DNA of 64,000 bases from an uncultured Flavobacteriaceae bacterium. Its GTDB lineage: Bacteria; Bacteroidota; Bacteroidia; Flavobacteriales; Flavobacteriaceae. This document shows, one piece after another, positions 36,120 through 59,987 of this stretch; position 1 is the first letter of the stretch, and each line of letters starts with the position of its first letter. Made by a program: the position numbers and the translations under genes. Location of the stretch: positions 124,001 through 188,000 of the forward strand of contig CALTCK010000001.1 of assembly GCA_943842625.1 (NCBI GenBank). The letters run 5' to 3'. The notes below the pieces were generated by a model. It was not told the DNA's origin. It was given only the letters and a program-made list of their open reading frames with translations, and searched no databases.

Positions 36120-36781
36120 TTATCCTGCAATAAAATCTTTTAAATAATAGGGTTCAAAATAAGCGACATCTTCAAATTCGTTATTTTGATATTTATTTTC
36201 GGCCAAAATTCCCATTTCATTGGACGATGGTAAATTTTGACCCATAAAAATCGCATCGTTATGCTTACAAATTGGTTTAAATTTTTCAACGCCATTACCA
36301 ATAAAATAAATGATGTATTTTCATTTAAATAATTAGCAAACGAATGGTCGTCTAGTACCTCTGCTCTGGTATCTCTAATTTGAATTTTATCTTTTGAAAA
36401 AACCGCAGAATATACTTCTAAACGCCTAGCATCTAACATGGGCACTATAGTTCCATCTGTATTTTTCACCTGATATGCTAGTGCTTCTAGTGTAGGAATT
36501 GAAATAAGAGGGATTTCCAAAGCAAAACACAAGCCTTTAGCTGCTGAAACACCAATACGGAGCCCGGTATAAGACCCTGGACCCTTACTTACTGCTATAG
36601 CGTCTAAATTGTCTTTTGTTATTTTACTTTTGACCAACACATCTTCAATAAACAAATGTAGTTTTTCGGCATGTGAATAATTTTTATCGTTTTCCTCTTT
36701 TAAGGAGACTACAATTCCATCAACTGATAAGGCAACAGAGCAGTTGGTTGTAGTTGTTTCAATACATAAAATTGTTGCCAT
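36120..36781 (-). CDS. tsaB: TsaB, tRNA threonylcarbamoyladenosine synthesis, frameshifted
   Basis: The intact N-terminal part (MATILCIETTTTNCSVAL, KGPGSYTGLRIG, LCFALEIP) is TsaB, the partner of TsaD that is needed for t6A in tRNA. After NENTSFI the open frame diverges to low-complexity sequence ending at 36140. If one T is restored in the short T-run at 36303-36306 (minus strand), the typical end FIGNGVEKF, then EDVAYFEPYYLKDF, continues to the stop at 36120-36122, giving 220 residues. So one base is missing. The gene is 14 bases downstream of the HlyD-like adaptor gene in the same direction. A base-call deletion is more likely than loss of an essential gene. Confidence 0.9.
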
Positions 36782-36794
36782 TAAAATGTGTATA

Positions 36795-38069
36795 TTATTC
36801 TTTTTGTTCCTCTATTTTAGTCTCAACTTTACTACCGGGTTTTAATATTTTAGTAACGGTGTTATAGGGACCTGTAATAACTAAATCTTCCTCTTTTAAT
36901 CCCGAAATAATTTCAATATTTGAATCATCTTGAATTCCCGTAGTGATCACTCTTAATTTAGCAACATCGCCTTCTTTTACAAACACACATTCAAACTTTT
37001 CTGCTGTTGTCGATTTTGTTTCTTTTACAACTTGTTTCGCAGTGGTACTGGATGTGTCTGTTTTAATAACTATCGAACTGATGGGTACCCCAATTATTTT
37101 CTCTTTTAAATTGGTAATAATATCCACCGTCGCAGTCATTCCTGGTCTAAATGGCGAATAGTTATCGGACCTATTTACTGTTAAATCTTTATAGGAGTCT
37201 GGAAGAATTCTAACTTTTACCTTAAAGTTTGTTACTTGGTCAACGGATAAGGTGTTTTCGGCCGTATTTGCAATTTCTGTAACAACTCCTTTAAATTCTC
37301 TTTTTAGATAAGCATCAACTTCTACAATTGTTGAATCTCCAACATTTACTTTAACAATATCTGTTTCATTAACATCAACTTCAACCTCCATATTATTTAG
37401 GTTAGCAACTCTAACAATTTCAGTACCTGCCATTTGAGCTGTCCCAACAACACGTTCTCCTAATTCCACTGAAAGTTTAGAAATTGTTCCATCTCTTGGA
37501 GCAAAAATCGATGTTCTGGATAAATTATCTCTAGATTGTTTTACAGAGGACTTTGCACTTTCTACATTATAAAAAGCAGATCTTACGTTTGCTTGCGCTA
37601 CTTCATAATCAGTTTGTGAACGCTCCCAATCAGATCTTGAAATTACTCCCTTTTCAAAAAGAGATTTATTTCTCTCAAAATTAATTTTAACATTTGCTAA
37701 ATTTGCCTCAGCTTGAGTTAATTGTGCTTTTACATTTTGTAATCCTGCTTGAGATTGATCTACCATTGCTTGTACCAAATCGGGATTAATACTAACTAAT
37801 AAATCTCCTTTTTTAACTTGTTGCCCTTCAATAATAGGTAGTTCAATTATTTCTCCCGAAACTTCAGAAGATAATTTAATCTCAACCTCAGGTTGAATTT
37901 TTCCGGTTGCTGCAACGGTCTCAACAATATCAATTAAACGAATACTTGTAACTTCAACTTCTTTAAAATTTCCGCTTTTACCGAACCAACCAGCTTTTTT
38001 ACCAGAAATTAGTACAATCAATAAAATTACAACAATAACAATTATCCAAACGAAGGTCTTTTTTTTCAT
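36795..38069 (-). CDS. Periplasmic adaptor subunit of a tripartite efflux pump (HlyD/MFP family)
   Basis: The 424-residue protein has a single N-terminal membrane anchor (residues 7-21), then the lipoyl half-motifs (ATGKIQPEVE and GDLLVSINPDLV), an alpha-hairpin coiled coil at about 95-180 and a beta-barrel (RPGMTATVDI). It bridges an inner-membrane permease and an outer-membrane channel. It directly follows the TolC-like gene (two bases). A second adaptor in this operon (39597-40750) is frameshifted, so this intact copy may be the working one if those shifts are real. Confidence 0.9.
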   Translation of the reverse strand: MKKKTFVWIIVIVVILLIVLISGKKAGWFGKSGNFKEVEVTSIRLIDIVETVAATGKIQPEVEIKLSSEVSGEIIELPIIEGQQVKKGDLLVSINPDLVQAMVDQSQAGLQNVKAQLTQAEANLANVKINFERNKSLFEKGVISRSDWERSQTDYEVAQANVRSAFYNVESAKSSVKQSRDNLSRTSIFAPRDGTISKLSVELGERVVGTAQMAGTEIVRVANLNNMEVEVDVNETDIVKVNVGDSTIVEVDAYLKREFKGVVTEIANTAENTLSVDQVTNFKVKVRILPDSYKDLTVNRSDNYSPFRPGMTATVDIITNLKEKIIGVPISSIVIKTDTSSTTAKQVVKETKSTTAEKFECVFVKEGDVAKLRVITTGIQDDSNIEIISGLKEEDLVITGPYNTVTKILKPGSKVETKIEEQKE

Positions 38070-38071
38070 AA

Positions 38072-39529
38072 TTAAAATTTAAGCTCAGTAGCTGGTATTC
38101 CAAAGTATAATTCCAATACTTTTAATTTAAAAATATAATCAAATTTAGTTCTATTAGCTTCAATATTAGCAGTACTATATCGTAGTTTGGATTGACTAAA
38201 CTCAAATGAGTTTGTTAAACCTACATCAAACCTAGTTTTTGCATATTCGTAAGCTAACTCTTGAGATTTAAATGATGCCAATGCAGCATCGTACGATTTC
38301 TTTGCTCCATCTGCATCGACATAGGCTTGATATACCGATGATTCTAAATCGAGTTTAGCTTGTTCCAGTTGATATTCGTTTCTTTTTACATTAACTATAT
38401 TACGCTTTACATTGTTTCTAGTAGAAAATCCGTTAAAAATTGGAAGACTTAAATTTAATCCATAAGAAACACCGTCATTGTCAGACAACTGATCTGTAAA
38501 TGCTTTTGCTGGTGTTTGTATCAAGCTGGTATTTGGTACTTCCGATAAAACAACTTCTCCTGTAGATCCTACATAACCTATTTGAGTAGTTAATGTTGGA
38601 TTGTCAGGATTTAACACCGAAGAAATTTGAGGAATATCATTTTCGCGAGTATTGTAATTAAAATATGCATTAAGAGTAGGCCAATAAATACTTCTAGAAA
38701 TTTCTAGATCTTTATTGGCAATATTCATATTTTGTTCTGCAATTTTTACTTCATATCTATTTTCTTTGGCAGAATTAATTACTTCGTCAATATTTTTCTC
38801 TGCTACTTCAGATAATATTACAGAAAATTCTTGATCTGCAATATCGAAATTTCCATAATCTTTAATTAGTAATAATTGAGCTAAACTCACTAAAGATATT
38901 CTAACATTACTTTCAGAATTTACAATCGCTTGTTGCTCTTGAGCACTAACCGCATTAATTTCTAATAAGTCTCCTTCAGGTAATACTCCTGAGTCTACTA
39001 ATTCTTTAGTTCTTGAAATTTGATCTTTAGTGACCTTATTTTGTTCCAATGCAACCTCTAAATTTGCTTTTGCTAACAATACTTGTAAATAATTATTTGC
39101 AACAAACAATGCGATGTCATCTTTTATCTTACTTGAGTTATATTGCGAAGAAAGTTGTTGCATTTTTGCTTTTTGTAATTCTCGGTGATTTCTTAAACCA
39201 CTAAAAACAGTAACTCCAGCAGAAACACTGTAGGATGAACTCCTCGAAGTAATATTTCTTAAAATCCCCGTTGTAACGTCTTGTGTTAAACCTGTATTCC
39301 AGCTGTTAGAAGCCGAGCCGTTGATCGATGGCAAGAAGTTTCCAATGGCTCCACTTTTTGCTATATCAGAGTTTTCAATATCTAATTCTGATTGTTTTAC
39401 AGAAATATTGTTTTCTATCGCATAAGCAACACATTCTTGAAGTGTCCATTTTTTATTTTGTGCTATTAATGTTACTTCCATACCCAGAAATAAACACAAC
39501 ATTACTAAAGTCTTCATATTGATAATCAT
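38072..39529 (-). CDS. TolC-family outer-membrane efflux channel
   Basis: A 485-residue protein with a signal peptide (EVTLIAQN) and two OEP repeats of long helices plus barrel strands (WTLQECVAYAIENN at the start of the mature protein, SLPIFNGFSTRNNVKRN in the second half). It forms a trimeric duct across the outer membrane and periplasm. It is transcribed between the two adaptor genes and together with the MacB-type permeases. Confidence 0.93.
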   Translation of the reverse strand: MIINMKTLVMLCLFLGMEVTLIAQNKKWTLQECVAYAIENNISVKQSELDIENSDIAKSGAIGNFLPSINGSASNSWNTGLTQDVTTGILRNITSRSSSYSVSAGVTVFSGLRNHRELQKAKMQQLSSQYNSSKIKDDIALFVANNYLQVLLAKANLEVALEQNKVTKDQISRTKELVDSGVLPEGDLLEINAVSAQEQQAIVNSESNVRISLVSLAQLLLIKDYGNFDIADQEFSVILSEVAEKNIDEVINSAKENRYEVKIAEQNMNIANKDLEISRSIYWPTLNAYFNYNTRENDIPQISSVLNPDNPTLTTQIGYVGSTGEVVLSEVPNTSLIQTPAKAFTDQLSDNDGVSYGLNLSLPIFNGFSTRNNVKRNIVNVKRNEYQLEQAKLDLESSVYQAYVDADGAKKSYDAALASFKSQELAYEYAKTRFDVGLTNSFEFSQSKLRYSTANIEANRTKFDYIFKLKVLELYFGIPATELKF

Positions 39530-39596
39530 AATTGAATTGGTCTTTATTATGTTAAAAATGTTACAGTTTTATTTTAATTAAATTTTATCTACGTCT

Positions 39597-40750
39597 TTAA
39601 AAGTTAGCTCTTGGTTTTAATTGGTTCCAAACTTTAATTTTGTCATTTGGTGATATTCCGGCTTTTACTTCTACATTAATACCGTCACTAATTCCTAGCT
39701 CTATCTCTTTTCTTTCAAACTTTTGATCCCCTATTTCTATTTCAACAAAAGGAGTTTTTGTTTTTATATCATACTGTATCAATGCCTCTTTTAATAGCTA
39801 TTACGCTATCTGCCCTTGCAAGAATAATAGAAGCATTTGCACTAAGACCTGCTCTGATAAACGTAGCGTCCTTTTTATTTAAAGTCCCTTTGATTTCGAA
39901 TTGAATTGCTCCGTTTTCATCGATGCCCTTGGGCGCAATATAATCTAAAGTTGCATCAAATTTTTTATTATCAATGGCTCCAACTGTAATTTCTAAAGCT
40001 AAATCTTCTTTAATCTTTCCTACTTCACTTTCATCAACTTTTCCCTCAAAAATCATGTTCGTAACATCTGCGATTGTTGCGATTGTAGTTCCATCGTTAA
40101 AATTATTGGACTCTATAACTTGATTTCCTGTTTTTACTGGAACATCCAAAACCATTCCAGAAACAGTAGCTCTTATTTCAGTATTTGCAGCTGCTCCCAT
40201 TCCACTTGTAGTACCTGTTTTAATAATATCATAATTTTGGCGGGCGTTATTTAAGCTAATCTGTTCTTGTTTATAACGTTGTAATGATTGATTATAGGAT
40301 AACTGTGCATTGTCAAATTCGTTTGCAGATATCACTCCTTTTTCAAATAATCCTTTTTGCCTGTTGTAAATACTTTCTTGATTTTGAAAGGCTAATTTTG
40401 CTGTTTCAACTTGAGTGCTTACCGAATTGATATTATTTTTAGCACTATTTAGATGAAGAAACGTTTGGGACTACTTTTACCATAGCTAATAAATCTCCCG
40501 ATTTTACATAGTCGCCAGCTTCCACAAATATTTGATCTATAATACCAGAGATATTTGGCTTAATAAGAACCTCCTCCTTGGGCACTATACTCCCAGTAGC
40601 TACTGTTTTTTTTAAAATTGTGTGTCTAAAAGAACTTTGAGTTTCATAAACTACTGGATCTTTTTGATCTTTTAAGTAGATGTAACGTATTCCAAATACA
40701 AATGCAATTAAAATAACGGTTAAAGTGATAATAGTTCCTATTCTTTTCAT
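39597..40750 (-). CDS. Second HlyD/MFP efflux adaptor, interrupted by two frameshifts
   Basis: Three overlapping-frame pieces add up to one adaptor. MKRIGTIITLTVILIAFVF (anchor) and VATGSIVPKEEVLIKPNISG end at a stop near 40451; the coiled-coil and barrel continue in another frame (NEFDNAQLSYNQSLQRY, APKGIDENG, RAGLSANASI) to a stop near 39769; the last 60 residues (DIKTKTPFVEIEIG, GISPNDKIKVWN) are in a third. Total length 1154 bases equals 384 codons plus two extra bases, consistent with one inserted base near 40452-40460 and one in the T-run at 39789-39792. Reassembled length is 383 residues. It precedes the TolC gene by 67 bases. Confidence 0.88.
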
Positions 40751-40787
40751 AGTGGGTAATACTTTATATTTCTATTCTTTTTAAGTT

Positions 40788-42047
40788 TTATTCTGTTCTT
40801 AATGCGTCTACAGGTTTCATTCTAGTGGCTCTCGTAGCAGGAATTAATCCTGCTAAAACACCAAAGAGAACTAATATCAATAAAGCAATTAAAATTACTT
40901 TTATATCGACAGCAGGATTGGCAAAGTTATCTATAGGTCCAATACTATCTATTATTGAATTTGTCAGCCATATTGCTCCTGAAGCAAATGCAATACCAGC
41001 CATTCCAGAAACGATAGTTAATAACAAAGACTCTTGAAGTATTTGTGTTCTTATGTTAAATGGAGTCGCTCCGAGTGCTCTTCGTATTCCTATTTCTTTC
41101 GTCCGTTCCTTTACAACAATCAACATAATATTACTAATTCCTATAGCGCCAGAGAGCAGAACAAGAGTTCCAACAAAAAAACCAACAAAAGTCAATATAC
41201 TAAACAGTCCCGATATTTTACTAAACTGTTGGGCTAAATCATAATCTCCAATTGCACGATTATCTTTTGGATGAATTGTGTGTTGCTTTCTGATGATAGA
41301 AAATATCTTGGGTTTAAGATCCGTTATATTTATTTTATCCTCTGCTGTGATTGCCATCCAACTTACTGTATCTCCATAATTAAATACTTGTGAAAATGTG
41401 GTAAATGGTACAAATATCGTATTGGCATCTTCTTCTTCATCTCCGTTACTATTACTTTTTTTAAAAACTCCGATAACTAAAAAATTAACTCCATTAATTT
41501 TTACATAGGATTCTAAAATATCCTCGTCTAGATCATATAACGATTTTACTACATCTGCTCCAATAACGGCTACTTTCCTTTTTTCATTAATATCTGAATA
41601 ACTTATAAAACGCCCTTGTGTTATGTCCATGGGTTGTTGATAAATGAATTCAGGGTAATCACCTGTAATACTAAAAGCTCCTGTTTTATCTTTTCTTGTA
41701 ACATTATTTGCACCTCTGTAACCTCCTAGTTGGTTTCTTGGAGAAACATATTTTAATGAAGGTACTTTTTCTTTTAAAAGAGCTACATCATCAATTTTAA
41801 AATTATACCGCCTTCCCTTAGGTAATCCTTTATATGCCTTGGATGTACTTTGCGACCACATAAAAATTGAATTGGTTGCAAAATCACCAAAATCTTTGAT
41901 AACTCCATTTTTTAAACCATTTGTTAAGGCGAGTAACAATACCAAAATCATGATCCCCCAAAAAACACCAAAAGCGGTCATTAAAGTCCTAAAGCGGTTG
42001 GCATTTAATGCCTCTAATATTTCATTCCAACGATCTTTGTTCAACAT
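40788..42047 (-). CDS. MacB-type ABC transporter permease (intact)
   Basis: The 419-residue permease has an N-terminal membrane helix, a large periplasmic MacB core domain (residues 45-270) and three C-terminal helices forming the FtsX-like domain with the conserved TKEIGIRRALGATPFNIRTQI segment and ending MKPVDALRTE. It uses the separate ATPase at 43291 and hands substrates to the adaptor-TolC system. It is nine bases downstream of the second, frameshifted permease. Confidence 0.93.
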   Translation of the reverse strand: MLNKDRWNEILEALNANRFRTLMTAFGVFWGIMILVLLLALTNGLKNGVIKDFGDFATNSIFMWSQSTSKAYKGLPKGRRYNFKIDDVALLKEKVPSLKYVSPRNQLGGYRGANNVTRKDKTGAFSITGDYPEFIYQQPMDITQGRFISYSDINEKRKVAVIGADVVKSLYDLDEDILESYVKINGVNFLVIGVFKKSNSNGDEEEDANTIFVPFTTFSQVFNYGDTVSWMAITAEDKINITDLKPKIFSIIRKQHTIHPKDNRAIGDYDLAQQFSKISGLFSILTFVGFFVGTLVLLSGAIGISNIMLIVVKERTKEIGIRRALGATPFNIRTQILQESLLLTIVSGMAGIAFASGAIWLTNSIIDSIGPIDNFANPAVDIKVILIALLILVLFGVLAGLIPATRATRMKPVDALRTE

Positions 42048-42056
42048 AACTTTTTA

Positions 42057-43303
42057 CTATTCTACCCTAAGTGCTTCTATGGGTCTTATATGTGCTGCTC
42101 TTCTTGCTGGTACAAAGCCAGCAAAAACCCCAGCTATAATCAATATAGTGACTGTAATAATTGCAGTTTTAAAATCTACTTGAGGTGACTTTATAAAATC
42201 ATTATCTACCATTGGACTAATTAATTCTAACAAACCAACTCCAGCAAACAAGCCTAAAAAACCCGCAAAAGCTGTGATAAAAATTGCTTCTTGGAGAATC
42301 ATTCCAATGATGGAGCTTGGCAATGCCCCGAGTGCTTTTCGAATTCCAATTTCTTTGGTCCGCTCTTTCACAACAATGAGCATAATATTACTTACACCAA
42401 CAACTCCGGCAATAATAGTACCGATTCCTACAAACCAAAAAACATAACTAATTGTTGCAATGAGAGTGTATATTCTTTTTGCTTCTTCTAATGTGTTTTC
42501 AACCCTTACAGCACTTCGATCGTCTGGAGAAATAGTATGTTTAGTTCTAATATCGTTTTCAAAACTTTCTGATAAAGCCATTGACAGCGCTACGGCTTCA
42601 TCGAAATTATCAGACATCTTTACTGTATAGGCTAAAGATCTGACTTTGTCTCCCGCATTAAAAATTTGTTGGGCAGTAGTTAACGGAATAAAAACTCGAC
42701 TTTCCTCTCGTTTTCCACCAGGATCAGCATAAACTCCCACGACTTTAAAATTAATTCCCGAAATTTGAACATATTCTCCTATAGGATTTATCTCTTTAAA
42801 AAGATCTTGTTTAATTTGATTTCCAATAATAGCAACTTTTTCTAATTGATTAATATCATTGTTATTTAGAAATCGTCCAGAAACCATGCCTTGGTTTTCA
42901 ATAAATTGTTGATCTGGATATGCTCCCTTCTACTCTATAGTTTCCAACTTCACCATTATAAAGTAGTTGTCCTCTCCAAACGCTATATATCGATGTTTTG
43001 TACTCTAAATTATCCGTATATTTTTCGTTAAATTCCTCAAAATCATTATTTCTTAATTGAATTAATCTACCTGGATTTAGACCTTTATATTCTTTAGTAG
43101 TCCTTCTAGTTCTGATTGCAATTCGGTTGGTAGCATCTTCTTCGAATTGAGATTTTACTCCCTTTTCAATTCCACTACTAAAGCCAACTAGGATTACTAA
43201 AATAAAAATTCCGAAAAAACACAGAAACCATTGTTAAAAACGTTTGAAGTTTATTTTTTAACATGGTCTCAAAAATTTCTTGCCAGCTTTCTAAACTAAA
43301 CAT
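42057..43303 (-). CDS. MacB-type ABC permease, interrupted by two frameshifts
   Basis: The C-terminal 276 residues are an ordinary MacB permease (MVSGRFLNN, TKEIGIRKALGALP, IRPIEALRVE). The N-terminal third is in two other frames: SLESWQEIFETMLKNKLQT and FLTMVSVFF from the ATG at 43303, then FSSGIEKGVKSQFEEDA to GEVGNYRVEG. Length 1247 is 415 codons plus two bases. The extra bases lie in the A-run at 43214-43219 and the C-run at 42924-42926 (plus-strand notation). The ATG overlaps the ATPase gene by 13 bases. It pairs with the permease at 40788 to give a heterodimeric transporter. Confidence 0.88.
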
Positions 43304-44004
43304 ATTCTCTTAGTTTTAGCCCTCACCTGTTTTACTTTTGAATCACTTATAATAATACCATCTTTAAGATTTACAATTCGCTTACACATGTGGGCTATAT
43401 CATCTTCATGCGTAACAATTAAAATCGTTTTCCCTTCATCATTTATTTGTTGAATTAACTCCATCACCTCATAGGAAGTTGTTGAATCTAACGCTCCGGT
43501 AGGTTCATCTGCTAACAATACTTTGGGGTCACTAGCCAAAGCTCTTGCAATAGCAACACGCTGTTTCTGACCCCCAGAAAGTTCATTGGGTAAGTGACCA
43601 GCCCAGTCTGCTAAACCTACTTTTTCGAGATACTGCAATGCTTTTTCAATTCGAACAGTTCTGCTAACTCCTTGATAATAAAGAGGCATCGCAACGTTTT
43701 CTAGTGCAGATTTATAGTTTATTAAATTGAAAGACTGAAAAACAAAACCTAAAAACTTATTTCTGTATTTCGCAGCAATTTTTTCATTAAGATTTTTAAT
43801 GAGGGTACTATTTAAATTATAAACCCCTTCATCTGGTTCGTCTAGAATTCCTAAGATATTGAGTAATGTTGATTTACCAGAGCCTGAAGATCCCATAATA
43901 GCAACCATTTCACCTTCAGAAACTTCAAAATTAATTCCTTTTAAAACATGAAGTGAGTTGCTCCCCATTTTATAGGACTTGTGCAGATTTTTAATTTCGA
44001 TCAT
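43291..44004 (-). CDS. ABC transporter ATP-binding subunit, MacB/LolD type
   Basis: The 237-residue ATPase has Walker A GSSGSGKST near residue 37, signature LSGGQKQRVAIARA near 142, Walker B VLLADEPTGALD near 162 and the switch histidine VTHE. It is the first gene of the seven-gene minus-strand operon running ATPase, permease, permease, adaptor, TolC, adaptor, tsaB. It energises the MacB-type permeases. Confidence 0.94.
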   Translation of the reverse strand: MIEIKNLHKSYKMGSNSLHVLKGINFEVSEGEMVAIMGSSGSGKSTLLNILGILDEPDEGVYNLNSTLIKNLNEKIAAKYRNKFLGFVFQSFNLINYKSALENVAMPLYYQGVSRTVRIEKALQYLEKVGLADWAGHLPNELSGGQKQRVAIARALASDPKVLLADEPTGALDSTTSYEVMELIQQINDEGKTILIVTHEDDIAHMCKRIVNLKDGIIISDSKVKQVRAKTKRICLV

Positions 44005-44140
44005 GGTTGTTTATTAATACTGACAAAGTACAGAAATTATAATTTGTTATATGTGAAATTGATGTTAAGAAATAGCTCAACACTACTCTTCATAAATTTC
44101 ATAAATAAGACCTTTAAAAAAATAAAATGTTACAGATTCT

Positions 44141-44896: not shown

Positions 44897-44897
44897 A

Positions 44898-45539
44898 TTA
44901 CAATAATAATTTAATGTCTTCTTTTATCATTTGTATTCCATCATCATCAAGTCCATTATAATAGATGATTGGATTTTCATTTTCATCTATTCTACATCTA
45001 ATATATCCTTCTTGATCTATCAATGCAAAAAAACCAGAATGTTCAAAACCTTCCTCAAATTCTGAATCTTCTCCTACAAATAAGTTGAACCCCAAATTAG
45101 CAAGCGCATATATATTTTCTTTATCTCCAGTTAATAAATGCCAATTTGGGTTCGTGATTTTATAACTCGTTGCGTATTGTTTTAATACCTCAGGGGTGTC
45201 TGTATTAGGATCGATACTAAATGAGGCCATCCCAAGATTAGGATTTCCATAAAATTCATCTTGAATCTTTACCATATTTCTATTCATAATTGGACAAATA
45301 GAAGGACAGGTAGTGAAGAAAAACTCAACAACATAAACCTTTCCCTTATAAGATTCATTGGTGATTTGTCTATTATCCTGATTAATAAAACTAAAATCAG
45401 GAACTTTCTTTAAGTCCTTATTTGCATCTAAAATATAAGATAGTTCTTTGTTGGTGAATTTATCAACAATCTTAGGAACTGACCAAATTCCAAATACCAA
45501 TATAATAAATGAAATACCAATGTATGAATAGTTTTTCAT
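44898..45539 (-). CDS. SCO1/SenC-family copper chaperone for cytochrome oxidase
   Basis: The 213-residue protein has an N-terminal membrane anchor and a thioredoxin-like domain with the copper-binding TTCPSICPIMN (CxxxC) near residue 76 and the later histidine in FEHSGFFALID near 165. SCO proteins deliver copper to the CuA site of subunit II. It is intact, and lies four bases after the frame-broken SCO-like gene. Confidence 0.94.
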   Translation of the reverse strand: MKNYSYIGISFIILVFGIWSVPKIVDKFTNKELSYILDANKDLKKVPDFSFINQDNRQITNESYKGKVYVVEFFFTTCPSICPIMNRNMVKIQDEFYGNPNLGMASFSIDPNTDTPEVLKQYATSYKITNPNWHLLTGDKENIYALANLGFNLFVGEDSEFEEGFEHSGFFALIDQEGYIRCRIDENENPIIYYNGLDDDGIQMIKEDIKLLL

Positions 45540-45543
45540 AGAC

Positions 45544-46207
45544 TTAAATTTCTCTTTTAGAATTATACTTTTTTAGTGCTAATCGATATTCTGCTAGCAA
45601 AATTCGTACGTCATCATCCATTTTATTATTAATTTCAGAGTAATTACTTGAATCAAAACCATATAACATTCCTACATCTTCATCATCATCTCTTCCCCTA
45701 AGATTTCGTTCCTTATCTATTAAAAAAACTTGATTTGAAGCAAAATTTTTATTAAGCACTATAACTGGAACCCAAGGAATTAAAAACTTTTTGTATTTCA
45801 GTGGTATCGCCAAAAACAAAATTCCAATTTTCAGGGTTTTCAATTTCAGAAAGTTTTTGTTTTAAATTTTGAATTTGAGGTTCTGTACCTCTTGGAGTTA
45901 AAATAATAAATTGCAAATCTTTAAATTGATAATTTTTCTTATAAATTTTATGAGCTAAATTAAAAGCATTAGACTGCGTTAATTCAAGATCATTACCAAA
46001 AAAACATAAAATTGTGAGGTGATTTTGTAATTCTTTTTTTACTTTATTTTCCGATTCAAATTGATCAATTTCCAAAACACCTCTGGTTAATACCGGCAAC
46101 TTTGCAAAATTGTTAACTCCAGAGGAAAAAAACAAATAAGCAGTTATAGGTAATAAGAATAAGATTCCTAGAATTGTAAATTTTTTTATTTTTTCTGATG
46201 TTTTCAA
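45544..46207 (-). CDS. SCO-like membrane-anchored protein lacking the copper motif, frameshifted
   Basis: Two frames join to 220 residues. The first part (TTG start at 46207, IKKFTILGILFLLPITAYLF anchor, FGDTTEIQKVFNSLG) ends at a stop near 45752; the rest (NKNFASNQVFLIDKERNLRG to the stop at 45544) continues in another frame. The junction is at about 45754-45763 and the total of 664 bases is one more than a multiple of three. The fold looks like thioredoxin/SCO, but the position of the CxxxC motif reads CFFGNDLE, so no copper pair is present. A pairing with the neighbouring active SCO is plausible. Confidence 0.75.
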
Positions 46208-46211
46208 GCTA

Positions 46212-46242: not shown

Positions 46243-46263
46243 TTAATTTAGGTTAAAAAAATA

Positions 46264-47743: not shown

Positions 47744-48326
47744 TTATCTAATAAAATAGAAAAATAAAAAGAGGTAAAGCCATAAAACATCAACAAAATG
47801 CCAAAAAGTAGCTGCTATCTCAATCCCTACAGTGTTTCCCAACGTATACCTTTGTTTATAATGATTATAAATTACAACCAATACTGAAATTAGAGCAGCA
47901 ACAATATGCGCCAAATGCAATAGTACTACTAAATAAATAAATGAAGTGGTAATTGTACTTTCACTTCCAGTAAAAAAATAACCGTAGGAAATAATTTCTG
48001 AAAACCCTTTAAATTGATAAATAACAAAAATAACACCAAGAATAAATGTGCTAATTAAAAAAATCATTCCTTTGTTTCTTTCTTGTGCTATTACATTTTT
48101 TTTTGCCAGGTAGAAAGTAAAACTACTTATGATGATGATCACTAAACTAATATAGAAGGCTGGTGGTATTTGAAAATCGTTTAACCAATCCGGGCGTTCT
48201 TTACTAACAATATAGCCACTTGTTATTCCCAGAAAACTCATCGTTAAACTAATCATTCCAAACCAAAGCATCATTTTTTTTGCTTTGTCTAGTTTAAATT
48301 TATAATTATCTGTTTTTATTTTCCAT
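47744..48326 (-). CDS. Second cytochrome c oxidase subunit III, frameshift near the start
   Basis: A 193-residue subunit III-like protein with five helices, LHLAHIVAAL and FWHFVDVLWLYLF. The intact frame opens only at 48274 (MMLWFGMIS), but its sequence continues upstream in frame with KFKLDKAKK and then has no start. An ATG at 48326-48324 (MENK) comes into frame if one A is removed from the five-A run (plus 48313-48317). The total of 583 bases is 194 codons plus one. So the 5' end is probably disturbed by a one-base insertion; alternatively the protein really starts at 48274. Confidence 0.85.
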
Positions 48327-48354
48327 TTGTGGGTCTTATTTAAAGTGCTATTTT

Positions 48355-49234
48355 TTATCTAATAAACTTATCAGCAACGTAAATTATTTGTAATAAAGTT
48401 ATATAACTAACGCTCACCAACATAAAATGTTTGGCAGCTTTGTTCGATCTGTATCTGTATAAACGGATTGAAAAGTATAAAAACCCTAAGCCAATTAAGC
48501 CTATTAACACCCCAGACAGAGGAGTTAAATATAATTTCCCTGTAACTCCAAAAACAGGTATTAAGGAGGCTAAAACGGTCCATAAGGTGTATAGTACCGC
48601 TTGAAGCGCAGTGCTTTTATCTCTTTTACCAGTCGGAAGCATAAAAAACCCTGCTTTTTCATAATCGTCAAACAAAAACCAGGCAATTGCCCAAAAATGA
48701 GGGAATTGCCAAAAAAACTGAATCATAAATAAAGTACCCGGCTCAATCCCAAAATTTCCAGTAGCAGCAACCCATCCTAGCATAAAAGGTATTGCTCCAG
48801 GGAATGCGCCTATAAAAACAGATAATGGAGTTTTCGTTTTAAGCGGAGTATACAAACTGACATACATAAATATACAAACCGAGCCAAACATAGCAGTAAT
48901 TGGATTGATTATGTAGAGGGCTATGATTCCAATTATTGTTAAGCTAACAGCGATTATAAAAGCTAACTGTACAGACATTCTGCCTGAAGGAATCGGTCTG
49001 TTTTTAGTACGATCCATTAAGACGTCTAAGTCCTTTTCGATAATTTGATTGTAGACATTAGAAGCTCCCACCATGGAGTATCCTCCAATGCATAATAAGT
49101 ATAACCTCCGCAACACTAACCAGGTCAGTTCCTAGCAAGTAGCCAGCAACAGAAGAGAATAAAACACTTACCGACAACCTGACTTTAGTAATCTCGAGAA
49201 AATTATTAAGGAAAGACCTCTTTTTTAAATGCAT
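48355..49234 (-). CDS. cyoE: Protoheme IX farnesyltransferase CyoE/CtaB, frameshifted
   Basis: A UbiA-type prenyltransferase that makes heme O for the oxidase. The ATG at 49234 opens with ITKVRLSVSVLFSSVAGYL. After VAEVIL the frame runs into nonsense, whereas from residue 47 onward the protein continues in another frame as CIGGYSMVGASNVYNQI, then EKDLDVLMDRTKNRP (prenyl diphosphate motif). An extra base lies near 49093-49102; the total is 293 codons plus one base. Restored length is 292 residues with about nine helices. An upstream in-frame TTG at 49249 is possible but less likely. Confidence 0.92.
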
Positions 49235-49269
49235 GTTTATACTTGACAAGTCCTAATTATTTGATTTTG

Positions 49270-49300
49270 CAAATATAAAACACCTCTCAAAGCTCCACAA
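49270..49300 (-). promoter_or_regulatory. Promoter of the cyoE-cox operon (TTG, 20 bases, TATATTTG)
   Basis: Minus-strand TTG (49300-49298) and TATATTTG (49277-49270), 20 bases apart, 35 bases before the ATG at 49234. A near-ideal Bacteroidota promoter. Confidence 0.7.
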
Positions 49301-49342
49301 TAATTTTAAGGTTTTCTTAAATAATAATAAATTGATTTTTAG

Positions 49343-49350
49343 TAATTTTG
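49343..49350 (+). promoter_or_regulatory. -7 element of the metallo-beta-lactamase-like gene
   Basis: TAATTTTG matches TAnnTTTG 21 bases before the ATG at 49372. The potential TTG start at 49348 lies inside this box, which supports 49372 as the real start. Confidence 0.4.
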
Positions 49351-49371
49351 ATTAAAATTAAACAACATAAA

Positions 49372-50424
49372 ATGTATAGAAAAACTATAACAATCGCTTT
49401 ACTTTTATTCTTAAGTTTTAACTCTTTTGCTCAACAAGATGGTGCAAGTAAAAAAGAAGAATATTATGCAAAAAAGAAAAAAATGATGGAAACCCCCCCT
49501 CCATTTAGTTTAAGTGAAATTGAACAAGCTAATTCAAGTGGAAACACGATGCTTATTAATATTCTACCAGGCTTATACTATTTTCAAGGGAATCATAATA
49601 TGGGAGTATATTTAGTCGAAGATAAATTTACTTTAATTGATACTCAAGAAGAAGATAATATGAATCGAAATTTAAATATAATAAAAAGAATAAATAAAAA
49701 AGCTTCCATAAAATACTTAATATCAACCTCGAATGAGTTAAAAGCATTAAAGACAGTTAAAGACTTAAAAAAAGATGGAGTCCTATTAATATCGCAAAGA
49801 GTAACTGAAAAAAGTCAGTTAAAACGAAAAGTAAGTGGTGAATCAGGCTTCAGTGGTTCTTTTAAGCCAGACTTTTCTTTTACGGAACAACTTAATCTAA
49901 ATATTGAAACAAAAACAATTGAAATTACGTCCATTAGTGATGAAGGTAATTCATTAGTTTATTTACCAAATGAAAATGTTCTTTTCACAGGAGCTATTTA
50001 TACCCACAAAAAATACCCACATTTAGATTATGAGAATGGAATTACCCTTGGGTCAATGTTACAGAACATATCAAAAATCGGAGATTTTGTTGATGAAAAT
50101 ACCATTATAGTCCCAGGAAAAGGAACTTTAGCCAACGCACTAGACTTAATAAATTATCAAAAAGTAATGACTAAAATTGTAAAACAACTTGTGACTATGA
50201 TTAAAAATGGTGATACTTTAGAAACTGTTTTAGCCAAGAAAAGTATTACCAATAATTTAGACTCTCGAGGTTTTGGCGATGGTTCTGTTACTACTGAAAT
50301 GTTCCTAACTTCGTTATATGAAGAATTAACCTATCAATTAGGCCCTGTTGATACTAGAAGTCCTGAAGAAAGAGCAATGGAAAGATTAAAAGAAATGCAA
50401 AAGAATAAAGAAAATAAAAACTAA
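49372..50424 (+). CDS. Secreted metallo-beta-lactamase-fold protein without zinc ligands
   Basis: From ATG 49372 the protein has 350 residues, with a signal peptide ending FNSFAQQ. Its layout follows secreted class B-type lactamase-fold hydrolases: GLYYFQG, GVYLVEDKFTLIDTQ, IKYLIST, GNSLVYLPNENVLFTG, YENGITLGSML, IIVPGKGTLA. However, the HxHxDH position reads STSNELKA, the second histidine region reads ISDEGNS and the PGHG motif reads PGKG. All zinc ligands that can be aligned are therefore missing. It is a likely pseudoenzyme, perhaps a binding protein. It stands alone on the plus strand between tonB and cyoE. Confidence 0.82.
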   Translation: MYRKTITIALLLFLSFNSFAQQDGASKKEEYYAKKKKMMETPPPFSLSEIEQANSSGNTMLINILPGLYYFQGNHNMGVYLVEDKFTLIDTQEEDNMNRNLNIIKRINKKASIKYLISTSNELKALKTVKDLKKDGVLLISQRVTEKSQLKRKVSGESGFSGSFKPDFSFTEQLNLNIETKTIEITSISDEGNSLVYLPNENVLFTGAIYTHKKYPHLDYENGITLGSMLQNISKIGDFVDENTIIVPGKGTLANALDLINYQKVMTKIVKQLVTMIKNGDTLETVLAKKSITNNLDSRGFGDGSVTTEMFLTSLYEELTYQLGPVDTRSPEERAMERLKEMQKNKENKN

Positions 50425-50434
50425 TAAGTTTTAC

Positions 50435-50472
50435 AAAAAAAAGCCCACGGAACACCATGGGCTTTTTTTTTG
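50435..50472 (+). terminator. Bidirectional terminator between the lactamase-fold gene and tonB
   Basis: GCCCA-C-GG pairs with CC-A-TGGGC (one mismatch) around an AACA loop; A-run on the left, T-run on the right. It can stop both the plus-strand gene and tonB from the other side. Confidence 0.85.
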
Positions 50473-50533
50473 TGCTTTTTTTAATAACTCTGCACTAATA
50501 AGTCTATAACTACTTTAAGTTTATAATTATAAT

Positions 50534-51253
50534 TTAGTTCTCTACTTGAAATAAAATTGGTAAAGAATAGAGTACACCTACAGCTGTTCCTCGTTGTCTT
50601 CCTGGGACCATTTTTGGCAAGGCTTTCACAACCTTTACGGCCTCTTGCTCTAATTTCGGATGAGGAGCTCGTGCTCTAACATTGACTACATCACCATTTT
50701 TATCAATTTTAAACTGAACAGCTATTCGTTGTCTACCCTCCAGTCCTAAATCACCTGCAAGTTCTGTATTGAATTTCTTCTGAACAAATTTTTGAACTTT
50801 TTCAGACATACACTTCTTTTTTTCAGCATTGGATCTCTTTTTCTCACATCCTGGATAAACAGGTACATTTTCAATAACCGCAAATGGAACGTCTGCAATT
50901 TCTTCTTCCGCCTCTTCGATTTCATCAATTTCCATAATCTCTTCTTCCTGATTCACTTCAGCAGATTCAATTATTGTTTCTTCAATATCTGCTTCGTCTT
51001 CAATCACCTCAATAACTTCAGGAGCTGGCGGTGGTGGTGGTGGTGGTGGTGGTGGAATATTCATATCAGTGATAGGAATATCTTCATCCAAATCATCACC
51101 TAGATTAAGCATATCTTGATTTATTTCAGCCTTTTCGTAAGTTTTATTTTCTATAGCTCTCCATGTAATAAAAAGCATTAATATCATTCCTAATTGGAAA
51201 AATATCATACTCTTACGATTTAGATCTGATTTTGGATTTTTTTTTGGTTCCAT
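50534..51253 (-). CDS. Energy transducer TonB
   Basis: The 239-residue protein has a cytoplasmic N-terminus, one membrane helix (residues 15-29), an acidic linker containing a ten-proline run, a Glu-rich stretch and the TonB C-terminal domain with VQFKIDKNGDVVNVRARAP and VPGRQRGTAVGVLYSLPI. The cysteine pair around residue 135 (PGCEKKR and KKKC) is common in Bacteroidota TonB. It couples the proton gradient to outer-membrane transporters. ExbB/ExbD genes are not nearby, so it is one of several TonB copies. Confidence 0.93.
   Translation of the reverse strand: MEPKKNPKSDLNRKSMIFFQLGMILMLFITWRAIENKTYEKAEINQDMLNLGDDLDEDIPITDMNIPPPPPPPPPPAPEVIEVIEDEADIEETIIESAEVNQEEEIMEIDEIEEAEEEIADVPFAVIENVPVYPGCEKKRSNAEKKKCMSEKVQKFVQKKFNTELAGDLGLEGRQRIAVQFKIDKNGDVVNVRARAPHPKLEQEAVKVVKALPKMVPGRQRGTAVGVLYSLPILFQVEN
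51027..51055 (+). repeat. GGT/GGC trinucleotide run coding for poly-proline in tonB
   Basis: A (GGT) run about 29 bases long, read as proline codons CCA/CCG-type on the tonB strand, encodes the Pro-rich linker. Such a triplet microsatellite can change length in frame without breaking the gene. Confidence 0.8.
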
Positions 51254-51309
51254 GAGGGTGTTTTTAACTAGTTGCTAAAATATATAATTTCTTGAGTAAA
51301 TAAAAAAAA

Positions 51310-51673
51310 TCAAGATGTAATTCTATTTTTATAATTTCTAAAAAACAACAGCCCTAAACTAGCGCCAAGTATATCGGCTATTACATCTAGAACTTCTGCT
51401 CCTCTTGACGACAGATAGTGTTCTTGAATTACTTCAATTAGTATGCCATACAACAAACAGACTGCCAGAATAAAAAATAAAGCTATTGGTTTTGTGTCAT
51501 TTAAAACACTATTGACATACAATAACCATAAAAAGGTCAAAACCAAAAATATAAACACATGAACTAATTTATCTATTGGGATGAAAGTATCAAATAGTTC
51601 TTGGAATCTCTTTACTAGGCAGCAAAAAAATAATAGTTATAAATAGAGAATAAAGGATACAGACAACAAGCAA
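51310..51673 (-). CDS. VanZ-like membrane protein, frameshifted
   Basis: The open frame from 51558 has three helices with AVCLLYGILIEVIQEHYLSS and RGAEVLDVIADILGASLGL, the VanZ signature. Upstream in the same frame the protein continues back to IPIDKLVHVFIFL; the preceding LPSKEIPRT and a first helix are in another frame from a TTG at 51673, next to the gcvH stop. The total is 121 codons plus one base, consistent with one inserted base near 51589-51600. VanZ-like proteins are of unknown function, some linked to teicoplanin resistance. It follows gcvH. Confidence 0.8.
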
Positions 51674-51677
51674 TTGT

Positions 51678-52061
51678 TTACTCTCCAATAAGCTCTTTAT
51701 AGGATTCTGCATCTAATAGTTGATTAATTTCTTCTGGATTTGATATCTTAATTTTTATCATCCAACCTTCGCCATATGCGTCAGAATTTACTTTTTCAGG
51801 TTCAGATTCTAGACCTTCATTGAACTCAATTACTTCTCCAGATAAAGGAATAAATAAGTCAGAGACTGTCTTTACAGCTTCCACAGTTCCAAAAACCTCA
51901 TCTTTATTTAAAGTTTCATCTAAAGTCTCTACTTCAACATAAACGATATCTCCTAATTCACTTTGTGCAAAATCAGTTATTCCTACCGTAGCTATGTCGC
52001 CATCAACATTAATCCATTCATGGTCTTTTGTATATTTTAAATTTGAAGGTGTATTCATCAT
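51678..52061 (-). CDS. gcvH: Glycine cleavage system H protein
   Basis: A 127-residue lipoyl carrier: KYTKDHEWI at the N-terminus, [10 protein letters not shown] with the lipoylated lysine near residue 67, and [14 protein letters not shown]-type tail. It shuttles the aminomethyl group between P, T and L proteins of glycine cleavage. It lies 18 bases after sprA. A second ATG one codon in (MNTPSNL) may be the real start. Confidence 0.97.
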
Positions 52062-52079
52062 AAATAATATAGGTTTTTA

Positions 52080-55000
52080 TTAATTTCCAAAGTTATATCG
52101 CAAGGTTAACCCTCCTCTTATGGTAGTTTGCGGAAAAGCTGTTGAAATTGCATATTCCGAAAAAGAATGATCATAATAAAACAGTGCTGTTAAATTTTTA
52201 CTCAACGCATAATCAACGGTTAATTGCGCTCCATAAATTGTTTGACCAGCTGTTGTTTGATTATTTGCAATATCAAGATATCTAATAATTGTTTTATTAT
52301 CTCTTCTAGATAAATCTAACTTAAAATTTAAATCACTTTTAAGAATTTGTTTCTTTCCGCCAAAATTTGTGCCAATCCTTAAATCTTTTATCCGGTATCC
52401 CGCTCCAATTACTATTTCATTCCCTTGAATTTCTGTCAACAAATTATTTGCAAAACTTAATGACAATGCTCTGTCTTTTTTTAATTCAAATAAAATGTTT
52501 ATTGAATTTTTCATTTCAAAATCAATTCTAATTAGTGGGGAAAACTGTTCTACTAAATTAACGTTGGTTAAAAGTGTTTTACTTTTAAAATTTCCTGACT
52601 GATCAGTATCCTCAGAATTATTGATATCAAAATCTAAATTGGTTCTGAATTGATTGACTGTATAGCCTGATCGATAACCGTGTTGCAGTGAAAATCGTTT
52701 AAAGTACTTTTTAAACCAAGAAAATTTCATCAAGCCTGTATATTTTAAATCCCAATTTGGGATTGGAATATCTCTGAAAATACTTGTACTTTCTTTCTCA
52801 GGGCTGCTCCCTTTGTAAGCTGACAAGAACGCTGGCAATAAAACATCTTGGCTAGTTTTTCCAAAACCAACTGGATACCCGGTTTCAGGGTCTACTGGAT
52901 ACGTAGAAGTACCATAATGCTCTTCAGCTAATCTTTTAGCTATTGTCAAACGATTGCTTCTAAAATCTTCAAATGGTTTAGAAGTAGTTTCATCACTAGT
53001 TGAAAACGCAGTCTTAATCAAAATAGTAGAAATATTGAAGTTACCAAAAACATTAGGAGTCAATGAACGATATAAATCGTTTTCTACTATATAATTTTCA
53101 GCATAATTTTCTGAATAAATTCTGCTAGCTGTTAAATCAATTTTTAAATCTTGAACAGGAATAAGATTTGCTTGAAGATCTAATTGAGTAGACTCTACTT
53201 CGGTATATTGCTCGTTAAATTCAGGGTATAATGTTAACCATCCATTTCTAGCTGCTAAATCTCTGATCTCTGCTTGACTTCCAAAAGTGAAGCCTGCAGT
53301 TGGTTTAAATGTACCTGCAAGACCAACAGTAGGGGTATATCCCGGTAGAAATATTCCATTATTTTCTTGATAATTAAACTGTACTTTTTTTACCATCGTA
53401 ACTAAATCTATCAATACATTCATAGATTTTTCTCCAGTTGTGAGAGAAGTTGAGAACTCTGTTCCATCGTTACACTTCTTGTGTCTCCGGATTGATTTGC
53501 TACTCCTTTTTTTGAATTTTTATTTTGTTGATTATCATCCTTCCCAGATTTTCCAAAAGATTTATCTCTATCATCTCTAGAGCTACTTTTTGTATCCTTT
53601 GAATTGGTTCCAGGCGGAACAATTTTTTTACTTTTCTTTCTTTTTATAAGTCCAACATATTTATAGAGAGTCTTCATGTCTAAACTCGAATTGATCCGGT
53701 GAGTTTGGGCATTTTGAACTGAGTTTCCTAGATTGTAAGACTGAGTTGTTCCATCCTCGTTAAGTATAGGAATATCTAGGAATAAATCACTACTTTTTTG
53801 CCATTGAAAATCTCCTGTATACGAGTATGTGGCTCTAATAAATTTCAAAAATGGTACTTTATTAAAGGGGATGTCGTAGTTCAGCTGAAGTGATTGAAAA
53901 TGTTGATTTGGATCACCAATATCAAAAAACCCATCCCAGACTCCAATAGTGTTATCTGTATTTCCAAAAATATCTATATAATTCTTAACAGTACGGTTGT
54001 TGGTGGACGAAAAATTAAATCTTAATGATTTTGTTAGATTATAATTAATCGTATACTGCCAGTCAAATAAGAAATTTCTTTGATACAGCGTGGGAACACC
54101 AATACTCCCTTCAGGTAAGTTTAACTCTCTAAACTTTTGTTCAGTATATTGCCTATTGTAGTTAGAGCCTACTGATATATTTGTTGGTAGATAATTGAAA
54201 TTAAAATCTTTTAATAATTTCCAATATTTACTTCTAAATATAGAGTCATTCTTTTTAAAAGGCTCTACAGGTTTTGGTCGGAAGTTATAATTATAAGTAC
54301 CGCCTAATAATACACTTTGTTCTTTAGATTGTTTTACTTCAAAACTTCTATGATCTACTTGGTTGTAGGAATAAGAAAAGGTGAAAGTTTTCGATATCAT
54401 AAACTTTTGGTTTGGAGTTACCTACCTTATTTTTTCGAACTCCAATAAAATTTATACTTTGCCTTTTGGTATATTCCTCTGACTGTTCTTGAATTTCTTG
54501 GCGCCTTTGAGAGTCTTGCTGATTATCAAGTCTTGTTTGAAGTTCTATATCCTGATATTCTTCGTCGTATTTTGGGGTTATTAGTTCTTCTGAAAGGCCA
54601 TAATTAAATGGTAATTGAATTCCCCATTTTTGAGGTAATAGCTGTCCTAAATTAAAGTTTGTAACCAAACCATACTCTTGAACATCTTCTAAACTCCTTT
54701 GATTTGGACCTTGTTCAATTGAGCCAAACCCAACAGTGCTTCTACTACCAGACGCACTTACAGTTGCAAAATCTGCTAAATTGACATCCATACTAGCTAC
54801 AGCAGCCCAACCTCCTTGATTGTCTAACTCTGTCATTCTTAACTCATTAAACCATGTTTCGCTACAAATTTCACTAGTTGTATTATTACGAATACCAATC
54901 ATTATAGTTCTTACATTACCAAAACTTGGATTACCTTTTATTCCTATTCTTAACTCATTTTCAGGACCAGAAAAATCCGGATCTAATTCAGATTGTAAAT

Positions 55001-58000
55001 AAAATGAAGTTTCATTTGGAATATTATTTTGATCCCCTAAGGCCAGTGACTTTACCTGCTGTAATAATTCAAATGGAAGAAGAAGTCTATTTTCAATTGG
55101 CCATATATCTTCAGGTGACGAACTGCCAAAAGTGGTAGGATTCAATGGTAGCTGAACTTCATAATAATTTTGAGATAAATCATTTCCCAATCTAACAAAT
55201 GCAACCATGTCGCCATCGGACAGCATGGCTTCGTTCTCAATAGATTCAGTATGAATGAACATCTCTAAATTTTTATACTGCCTCATGTCTACATTAAAGT
55301 TTTTGTAAACAGATCTTCCATCTTCCGGTTCTAATCCGCAGGTTCTTAATGATAACGACTGTTCGTTTTGACGGATTATATTATTATTATTATTAAGTTG
55401 TTCTCTATATACACCTGGTGGTAAAACATAAGGAATAGGAGATCTATTTTCATTCTCTTCAATACTAACAGTGAAATTTTCAAATAAAGTATTCCCTACT
55501 GTTGGATCTTGGGCATTTTCATCTAAAGCAACTTGATATCTTCTGTAATCTCCACGGATTAAATCTAATGTCCCAAATCGTAATATCATATCTTCTTCAA
55601 AATCGGATAAATACATACGCATAAATCGAATAGATCTAAAATCTGAAGCGCCATTTACTGACTCATCTGGCTCACTAATAGGAACTTTAAATTGAACCCA
55701 CCTTACAGGAATAATCTCGTTGTTTTGAAGGGTAACATTTATTTCTTTTGTATCGGTAATATAATCACTGTTGGTAGCGTCCATTCCAGGATAAACATCA
55801 ATGTTATACTCAAAATAACTATCTACGGTGTTCATCGTGTTATCTCGATTAATATCTTCCACATCAGGAAGAGGTGTTGAGCCTCTGTCAGTATTTGTTA
55901 AGATTTCTGGAGAATTTCCTTGAGTACCGTTATACTGGCTGTAACGTTGTACTAAATTTCCTTCTGCTTGTAAAAAATATTTATAATTATCTCCAGCGGG
56001 ATCAGATAAACCAGAAAATTCAGGATATAATTCTGCTTCTTCACCATCATTCAGACCATCGTATCCAATATCTTGATTAATTCTTTCTTGTCCTTGAGTA
56101 TCATAAACATAAAGTAATGATTGATTTGTGGGAACTTTACCATATGAGGTAGGTATCGTATTGGTATCAGAGCCGTCCTCAGGTAGTCCGTTTTCGTACT
56201 GCTTTCTTCCGTCTTTTAAAACATCCTCAGAAATATTTCCTAAATTAAAAGTAATAGTACCACCATCGCTTCCGGCTGTCTCATCGTATAAAAAAGGATC
56301 CATGAGCCAAAATTGAATATATTCAACATTTGACCTTTCAAAATCAGTAGTGGTTAATTGTCTAATAATTCCACCAAAATTAGACCCAGGATTCGGAATA
56401 GAATTGGTCCCGTTTGCTGCTGGATTGTAATTATATTGACCTCTCTCAGCTGGAGAAAAAGCAAGGTCTAAAGAAAACAGCGCTTGTGTTTGACCTTGAA
56501 TAATATCTTGATTTGGAAATATTTCATTTCTAAAAATTCTTCTAGTAAAAGGAGATGAAATATCGTCAATAGTTATTCCATCAGGTCTTTGAGAACTGTA
56601 AAATATCGGGTCAATGTTGTACCAAGACAATTTTGCGCGTCTGTAATTACTAGCTAAGTTTCCGTTACCTTGCTCACCTCCAAAACCGATAGGAGCACTT
56701 GATAAAAACCAAGTTAACGGAGAGCTAATATCAAAATTAGTTTGAGCCGCTTCAAAGTCATCGACGTACGCAGTTGTTTTACCATTCAAATTTGAAACTT
56801 TTGGAGCACCAGGTAATAAATATGCAAACTCGCCTCTTAAAGAAAAAACCGACTCCACATCAGTATCGATGTTAGGAAGTTTGTTCACTAACCTGGTAAG
56901 AAAAGGAACTTCGGTAGAGTAATTAGCGTTCAAGCCAAAAATAGAATTATTGATTGGTTCAGAACTAAAAGAAGATTTTTGAGTTAAAGGTCTTTCGTTT
57001 AAATTTAAAAAAGTTGCTCCCATTTGGAACTTTTCATTAAAAATATGTTCAACATTTAAACCTGTAAACCTTTTGGTTTGTTGGCCAAATAAGGTATTAT
57101 TTTCAGTAGAAACAGAAATTGGTGTATTGGAGTTTAATAACGAAGAATCTAAAATTTGAACCCTTCCTAATTGATAATTTACGGTATAATCTACTCCTTC
57201 TACTAAAACTCGACCACCAGCAGTTACTGTTACAGATCCTTGTGGTATGTTGAATGCTCCAATAGGAATTCCGTCTGCACCCGTAGATTTATAGGTTCCT
57301 TTTAATTGAAACTTATTTTTATCACTTTCTTCTTGCTCTGCTATAGTTTTTGTTGACTCATAAAGCTTTTTAAAAACGTATTTGTTTTGGTTTGCGTTAT
57401 AAGTTAAAGGATTGTTGTAATCTTCAGAGGCGTTGGGTGTATTTCCTAGCTTTTCAAATAAATGACTTCCAAAAGGCTCAATGTTTGTGAATATAATTCT
57501 TCCGTTTTGAGTATCTACCGTAATTCCTGGTGAAAAATCAAAAAACCCATCACCTCCTTGTTGTGGATCTCCATTAAAGTTCAATCGATCTAGATTGAAG
57601 ACTTTTAATAATGGTGTGTTATCAACATCAGAGGGTAAATCTAATGCTGGATATTCGATACTTCCCTCTGCTGCTGTTATAAAATTTTGAGGGGAAGGAT
57701 CTGTATATAATATATTCAAATTAAATCCATCTCGTTCTAATTGAAAAGCTCCTAGAGGATAAATATTTTTCATCATAATATCCCAGATAGGTTCCTCTAC
57801 ATTGGTGATATTACTCTTTAATAATTTAACAACAAGATTTTGAGATATTCCCTCAATCGGTTCATCATCATTCTCACCAGGAATTGTTCCTCCCGATGCG
57901 TCAACACCGTCACTAGAGAACTCTCCAACTTGATAAACTGTTCCGTTTACTGTAAATTGGAAAGCTACAGCCAATACTTCATCATTATTCAAACGCTGAT

Positions 58001-59339
58001 TCAAAGAAATGTAACCTAATTGGGTGTCTAATTTATATTCTCCAGTATTCAATTTTCTAGCGTTTTCTAAAGTCACATAATCTAACCCATCTCTAGTTTG
58101 AAGTCCACTAAAACCAGATTGTACTGTAGCTATATCTCGAATTGCAGGATTAAGTATCGAAGAATCATCACCTTCAATTCCGAGTGGGTTAAAATCGTTA
58201 TTATCATTATCTGGATAAGCTCTAGTTGGAGCATTTATAAATCCCCCTGAAGGAAAGGGTAAACCGATATTTTCTGGGTTTGACTCACCAATATCTTGCA
58301 ATGCAACAATATTTCTTACATTGTCTGTTGCATTTGTTCTGTTTGTAACCCAAACTTCTGTTCTAGTAATTTGAATATTTGTATTAATAAATGGGTACTG
58401 CGCCAAAACTCTATCATAGCTATCTCTGAAGTAATGGGATAAAAAGAAATGTCTATTTTCATCATAATCCAAAGCAAAAATATCAAAATCGGTTATCGTT
58501 GCACCACCTTCAGCTACAACGGTTCTTGTTTCAGATTTTTGTTCAGAAAACACACCTGTGATAGTAGTTTTACCAAATTGCACTTCTCCTTTAACACCAA
58601 ATAAACTTTGAGCACCTTGAATTAGAGAACTATTTAGAGGCATACTAACGTTACCGACCTCAATTTTTCTAATTATATCATCTTCAATTGGAGTATATTC
58701 TAGTTTAATCTGATTTTGAAAATCAAAAGTAGATTGCGTATCATAGTTAGCAGTAATCTGAAGTCTTTCACCAATTTTTCCCAATAAACTCAGGCTAATT
58801 CTTTGATCAAAATCAAAAGATAAATTACTTCTATTTCTTGGCGAAAAAGACGGATTATCTTGTTTAGTATAAAGCATTCCTAAATCAATTTCAACGCTAC
58901 CTTGAGGTATTATTTCTATGGTATTTCCCCCAAAAATAGATTCAAAAAAACTAGAATTAACATAAAAAGCGGGTAATAAGTTTTTTTGTAATTCTTCTGA
59001 GCCTTCTTTTCTGCCATCAGCAGCATCTATTTTATCTTTAAAATAAGATTTCATTTGCTGATTAAGAATTAAATCTCTATACTCTTCCGGTGTTAGAATT
59101 AATGGATAGGATATAGAGAAATCACCAACCATTTGAGAGTAAATATACATTTCTGTAATTGGATCGTAGGTATATAGATCTTGGATACTATTAGGAGTTG
59201 GAAGGTCCATCCTTCCCATAGTGCTGCCGGTGCTTGTTGAATCTTGAGAATAAGATGTTGCAAAAAAGCCTAAAAGGACGCTTAAAATTAATATTTGCTT
59301 GAAAAAGCTATTTTTAAAATTGTATTTTTTTACTCCCAA
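52080..59339 (-). CDS. sprA: Gliding/type IX secretion translocon SprA (Sov), two frameshifts
   Basis: Three pieces of 1663, 326 and 447 residues reassemble to 2419 residues, the usual SprA size. A signal peptide (ATSYSQ) is followed by the IQDLYTYDPITEMYIY start, SFDFDQRISLSLLGKIGERL, and an enormous barrel ending FPQTTIRGGLTLRYNF. SprA is the 36-strand outer-membrane pore for folded T9SS cargo, needed for gliding. Breaks: an extra T on the coding strand near 54386-54388 (ENFTFSYSYNQ would continue) and a missing A in the run at 53427-53431. The net effect on length is zero (2420 codons). The gene starts four bases after the ruvA stop, as in other flavobacteria. Confidence 0.95.
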
Positions 59340-59975: not shown

Positions 59976-59987
59976 TCCCTAAAAATG

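Follow-up and report, generated by a model that had tools for sequence, protein, structure and literature searches.

Among the closest described systems to the broken genes reported here are the residual indel errors of long-read assemblies. In PacBio subreads, insertions are reported as the most frequent type of error and homopolymers account for 46% of indels, compared with 85% of indels in CCS reads; the same report gives insertions as the rarest error class of nanopore reads (PMC5553090). One review describes PacBio errors as random and without homopolymer bias (PMC4719071), and an account of a MinION assembly describes its insertions as having no tie to particular homopolymers (PMC12007338). 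For marine metagenomes sequenced in the HiFi mode of PacBio, a frameshift-tolerant gene caller is reported to have been chosen owing to the larger number of frameshifts (PMC10877868).

The DNA analyzed here (the window) is a stretch of 64,000 nucleotides at positions 124,001 to 188,000 of contig C1 (271,497 bases) in the draft genome (G000) of an uncultured member of the Flavobacteriaceae. The draft comprises 1.94 Mb in 17 contigs, and its completeness is estimated at 84%. Five relatives of the same genus were compared with it. G001 is ~96% identical to the window and collinear over nearly all of it; G011 (~90 to 92% identical) aligned from 19.5 kb onward, G017 (~84% identical) aligned from 41.9 kb onward, and G015 and G007 (~75 to 82% identical) aligned piecewise. 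G001 was the sole comparison genome before 19.5 kb, and it was also the only one for the intervals at 49,880 to 50,680 and 59,480 to 60,280, which are absent from the multigenome alignment. The open reading frame (ORF) at 49348 to 50424 showed many small gaps against G011 and few against G001 and looks to be evolving rapidly. Between 18410 and 18700, short pieces matched G001 at several offset positions, which suggests a local repeat whose copy number is unequal between the two genomes.

The initial annotation, made from the nucleotide sequence and its ORFs, had listed 11 single-base frameshifts in eight genes of the window, and all 11 frame breaks were present in the pairwise alignments and in the alignments of three or four genomes. 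Each break was a difference from both of the nearest relatives aligned at that place (~96% and 90 to 92% identical), and all were private to the window genome with respect to G001, G011, and, from ~42 kb onward, G017. The annotation had recommended comparison with orthologous genes in close relatives, and all 11 breaks proved to be absent from those genes. In tblastn searches with intact ORFs of the relatives, a frame change appeared at 9 of the 11 sites with at least two other genomes supporting it, and the other two sites (~48.3 and ~51.6 kb, in the second cytochrome oxidase subunit III gene and the VanZ-like gene) were visible in six-genome DNA alignments and their translations. The same test gave nine doubly supported breaks in the window, over 60.0 kb of coding sequence, and none in any of the five relatives (70.6, 51.3, 17.3, 28.8, and 30.8 kb). 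Singly supported sites, which were not counted, numbered one in the window, two in G001, one in G011, and none in the remaining relatives. By type, nine of the 11 breaks add a single base, one of the two in sprA lacks a base, and the one in tsaB is a two-base surplus relative to the relatives, with a frame effect of −1.

These genes lie on the reverse strand. tsaB (36123 to 36781) is broken at ~36.31 kb, and the genome contains one copy of it over the cutoff plus a weak match below the cutoff. The gene for an HlyD/RND-type periplasmic adaptor (39600 to 40750) has two breaks, at ~39.79 and ~40.45 kb, as does that for a MacB/FtsX-type permease (42060 to 43303), at ~42.93 and ~43.22 kb. The gene broken at ~45.76 kb (45547 to 46207) had been labeled SCO-like, a label that belongs instead to the next gene downstream, SCO1/SenC (44898 to 45539), which is open; the broken gene is of no known family and gave no Pfam or NCBIfam match in family searches. 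Its break has protein-level support from G007 and G015 only and DNA alignment support against G001, G011, and G017. The second COX3-family gene (cox III-2; 47744 to 48330, with an approximate end) is broken at ~48.31 kb, just past the start codon of the relatives; cyoE/ctaB, encoding heme o synthase (48358 to 49249), is broken at ~49.10 kb; and a VanZ-family gene (51253 to 51680, with approximate outer coordinates) is broken at ~51.60 kb. sprA/sov, encoding the outer membrane translocon of the T9SS (52083 to 59339), has breaks at ~53.47 and ~54.39 kb, the second of which in reading order restores the frame, and this split copy is the only one found in the genome. Two small terminal breaks had been missed. 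An extra base near 43,309 (~43.31 kb) changes only the final residues of a MacB-type ABC ATPase (43291 to 44004, reverse strand), and in the left half of the window, an extra base near 30,094 (~30.1 kb) shortens the C terminus encoded by murI (glutamate racemase; 29339 to 30097, forward strand).

The initial annotation had placed all breaks in the right-hand part of the window, with the first 36 kb and the interval from 59.3 to 64 kb clean. The latter interval contains no frame-changing difference from G001 within any ORF. The first 36 kb is nearly clean: the extra base in murI is specific to the window genome, and two frame-changing differences inside ORFs before 19.5 kb (~11.7 and ~18.0 kb) were attributed to changes in G001. 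Window-specific indels in nongenic DNA occur in both halves, at ~22.2, 23.8, 35.2 (two), 44.0, 46.3, and 62.2 kb. Confinement to the right-hand stretch describes the window but not the 271-kb contig, to which 34 coding breaks were assigned, 25 of them outside the window (at contig positions of ~5.6 to 30, 48.6, 73.2, 90.8 to 95.4, 112.7 to 119.4, 200.9, 210.8, 231.6, and 258.5 to 263.6 kb). The breaks cluster: of 36 contig events, 11 fall within 18.1 kb, more than a uniform distribution would give (P = 0.0016, or P = 0.04 after events less than 1 kb apart were merged), and the longest break-free gap was unremarkable (P = 0.09 and 0.45). This test combined the 34 contig events with tsaB and cox III-2, which the sorting rule had misfiled as ambiguous and as a G001 break, respectively, and which were added by hand; it spread the events over the full 271 kb, of which 259 kb is aligned.

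The G001 ORFs scored as broken in this genome numbered 27, and 18 of these were put through family searches; left out were seven that were short or on other contigs and two that crossed stretch borders, one of which was sprA, searched as its window piece instead. Genes that are broken here and intact in G001 include murC, rsmH, gldB, rsgA, infB, tsf, and aspS, those for a tail-specific protease, a ComEC-like protein, a pseudouridine synthase, a radical SAM protein, and a T9SS-dependent M36 peptidase, and one ORF of no known family. The M36 peptidase gene, which lies outside the window, has five frame breaks in ~540 bases (positions 263062 to 263603 of contig C1), the densest burst observed on the contig. 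The break in infB lies near the N terminus, since the conserved part remains open (897 codons), and the coding sequences of aspS and tsf are both divided between reading frames. The breaks are placed without regard to gene function, in essential and in dispensable genes, and single-copy genes generally held to be essential are among those hit. No second copy of aspS or tsf over the cutoff was found in this genome, although with a completeness of 84% an unseen second copy is possible. No bacterium is known that lacks the products of these two genes.

The letter context of the indels was assessed over 364 kb aligned to G001, of which 259 kb belongs to contig C1; C1 dominates because most of the other G001 stretches did not overlap the contigs of this genome that were compared. 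Alignments of less than 1,500 bits or with identity of 90% or less were left out, and gaps longer than 2 bases were not classed. Another 119 gaps with a compensating neighbor within 45 bases were set aside, and 6 ambiguous and 118 noncoding differences were kept apart. The coding breaks assigned to this genome against G001 then numbered 43, excluding the murI and ATPase events as too close to ORF ends, and consisted of 33 insertions of one base, 8 deletions of one base, and 2 two-base losses; single insertions outnumber single deletions with a binomial P value of 0.0001. The inserted letters stood in runs of lengths 1 to 6 in 20, 9, 2, 0, 0, and 2 cases (n = 33), for which random insertion predicts 58, 23, 10, 4, 2, and 2%. 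A model of neighbor duplication predicts no runs of length 1, compared with the 20 of 33 observed. Homopolymer slippage was rejected as the cause, the inserted letters without an identical neighbor being as frequent as random insertion would have them. The claim that most breaks sit in short homopolymers is not upheld within the window either: of its nine single extra bases, seven have no identical neighbor, one is in a run of two, and one is in a run of three. Among noncoding single-base differences, 30 of 95 were in runs of 6 to 9, as slippage would yield; because noncoding DNA is probably richer in such runs, the contrast with coding sequence is no more than suggestive.

Contig C1 of the G001 assembly (loci L099 to L102 and L151 to L170) itself carries extra-base breaks at ~16 distinct sites, recorded in 18 rows because some events were counted twice via two G000 contigs, and 13 of the 18 rows have no identical neighbor. 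The G001 assembly probably also carries insertion errors and is therefore unfit as a clean reference by itself. From these ~16 sites, it may be that G001 was sequenced with the same technology as the window genome.

The breaks could represent recent gene decay in this strain, with single-base indels having inactivated the genes. Like young pseudogenes in a bacterial genome undergoing reduction, these are frameshifted ORFs in the assembly whose orthologs are intact in relatives. There is also a slight surplus of differences outside third codon positions: the ratio of differences from G001 at first and second positions to those at third positions was 0.43 in 20 broken genes and 0.37 in 183 intact ORFs, a small excess (Fisher P = 0.015). 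Positions up to 25 bases from a break differed more often (5.8% versus 4.0%; P = 0.0006), and errors near the indels, misplaced gaps, or slight decay could each account for these excesses. However, the broken genes are still strongly constrained and are far from loss of constraint. Because very young pseudogenes would give similar codon-position counts, the essential genes that were hit weigh more. Pseudogenes would be expected only among dispensable genes or genes with a second copy, which is at odds with the splitting of aspS and tsf as the only copies found. In addition, decay in bacteria is deletion biased, whereas insertions predominate here, and we consider decay very improbable.

An alternative that leaves the genes functional is programmed or tolerated +1 frameshifting, through which the broken frames would be read normally during translation. 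The majority of the breaks are of the +1 type and the downstream frames are conserved, and a +1 shift that links two conserved frames is what programmed ribosomal frameshifting produces in prfB. However, the sites are absent in the 96% identical relative and in G011 and G017, many unrelated genes are affected, the letter context matches random insertion, no shared site motif was apparent by eye in the break contexts, and extra bases also occur in nongenic DNA (~44.0 and ~46.3 kb); such frameshifting is even less probable than decay. A hypermutating strain, in which a repair defect generates indels, would account for numerous single-base insertions in one lineage. However, mutS is intact, as the initial annotation had stated, being full length and over the cutoff. 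Mismatch repair mutators favor homopolymers, a preference that was not observed here. Divergence from G001 is alike in broken (4.03%) and intact (3.97%) genes, and essential genes are among those hit, and we give hypermutation scarcely any credence. It is just as hard to believe that the insertions are real and that the lineage, G001 partly included, gathers single-base insertions regardless of context, essential genes included, while its ribosomes tolerate or correct the +1 shifts.

We conclude, with a probability of about 0.96, that consensus errors left uncorrected in the draft genome account for the breaks, which are then not features of the living bacterium. Breaks that are private to one genome, rich in insertions, almost independent of letter context, indifferent to gene function, and grouped in bursts form the pattern that noisy single-pass reads would leave in a consensus. 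The initial annotation had preferred uncorrected indels to decay, programmed slippage, and hypermutation, and the absence of the breaks in relatives, the essential genes hit, the random-like placement, and the retained constraint all bear out that preference. The errors probably originate from long reads. Noisy long reads, few in number, may underlie the consensus within the bursts; their errors would be insertion rich and weakly linked to homopolymers, for which PacBio single-pass reads appear to be the best fit. Polishing would then leave some insertions in place, shifting the predicted frames while the real genes remain intact. The error pattern does not by itself settle the platform, as insertions in MinION assemblies, too, can show little association with homopolymers.

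The case is an ordinary one, and it cautions against declaring these genes lost. Automatic annotation would wrongly describe TsaB, heme o synthase, a cytochrome oxidase subunit, SprA, GldB, AspRS, and EF-Ts as lost or truncated. The case also illustrates that, without reads, assembly error can be told from biology by comparison with a close relative, by the bases that flank the inserted letters, by whether essential genes are affected, and by counts per codon position. The breaks resemble the residual indel errors described for PacBio and nanopore data, in which single-base indels split predicted genes that are whole in relatives (PMC12007338, PMC10182627). Unlike PacBio CCS reads, in which homopolymer indels are reported to dominate (PMC12007338), this genome shows insertions with little homopolymer link, and unlike the MinION assembly of the same report, in which deletions after homopolymers are said to dominate, it shows a predominance of insertions. 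Its indel context is that expected of raw long-read errors as profiled in PMC5553090 and PMC4719071, and with insertions dominant and only a weak link to homopolymers, it comes closer to the PacBio subreads described in PMC5553090.
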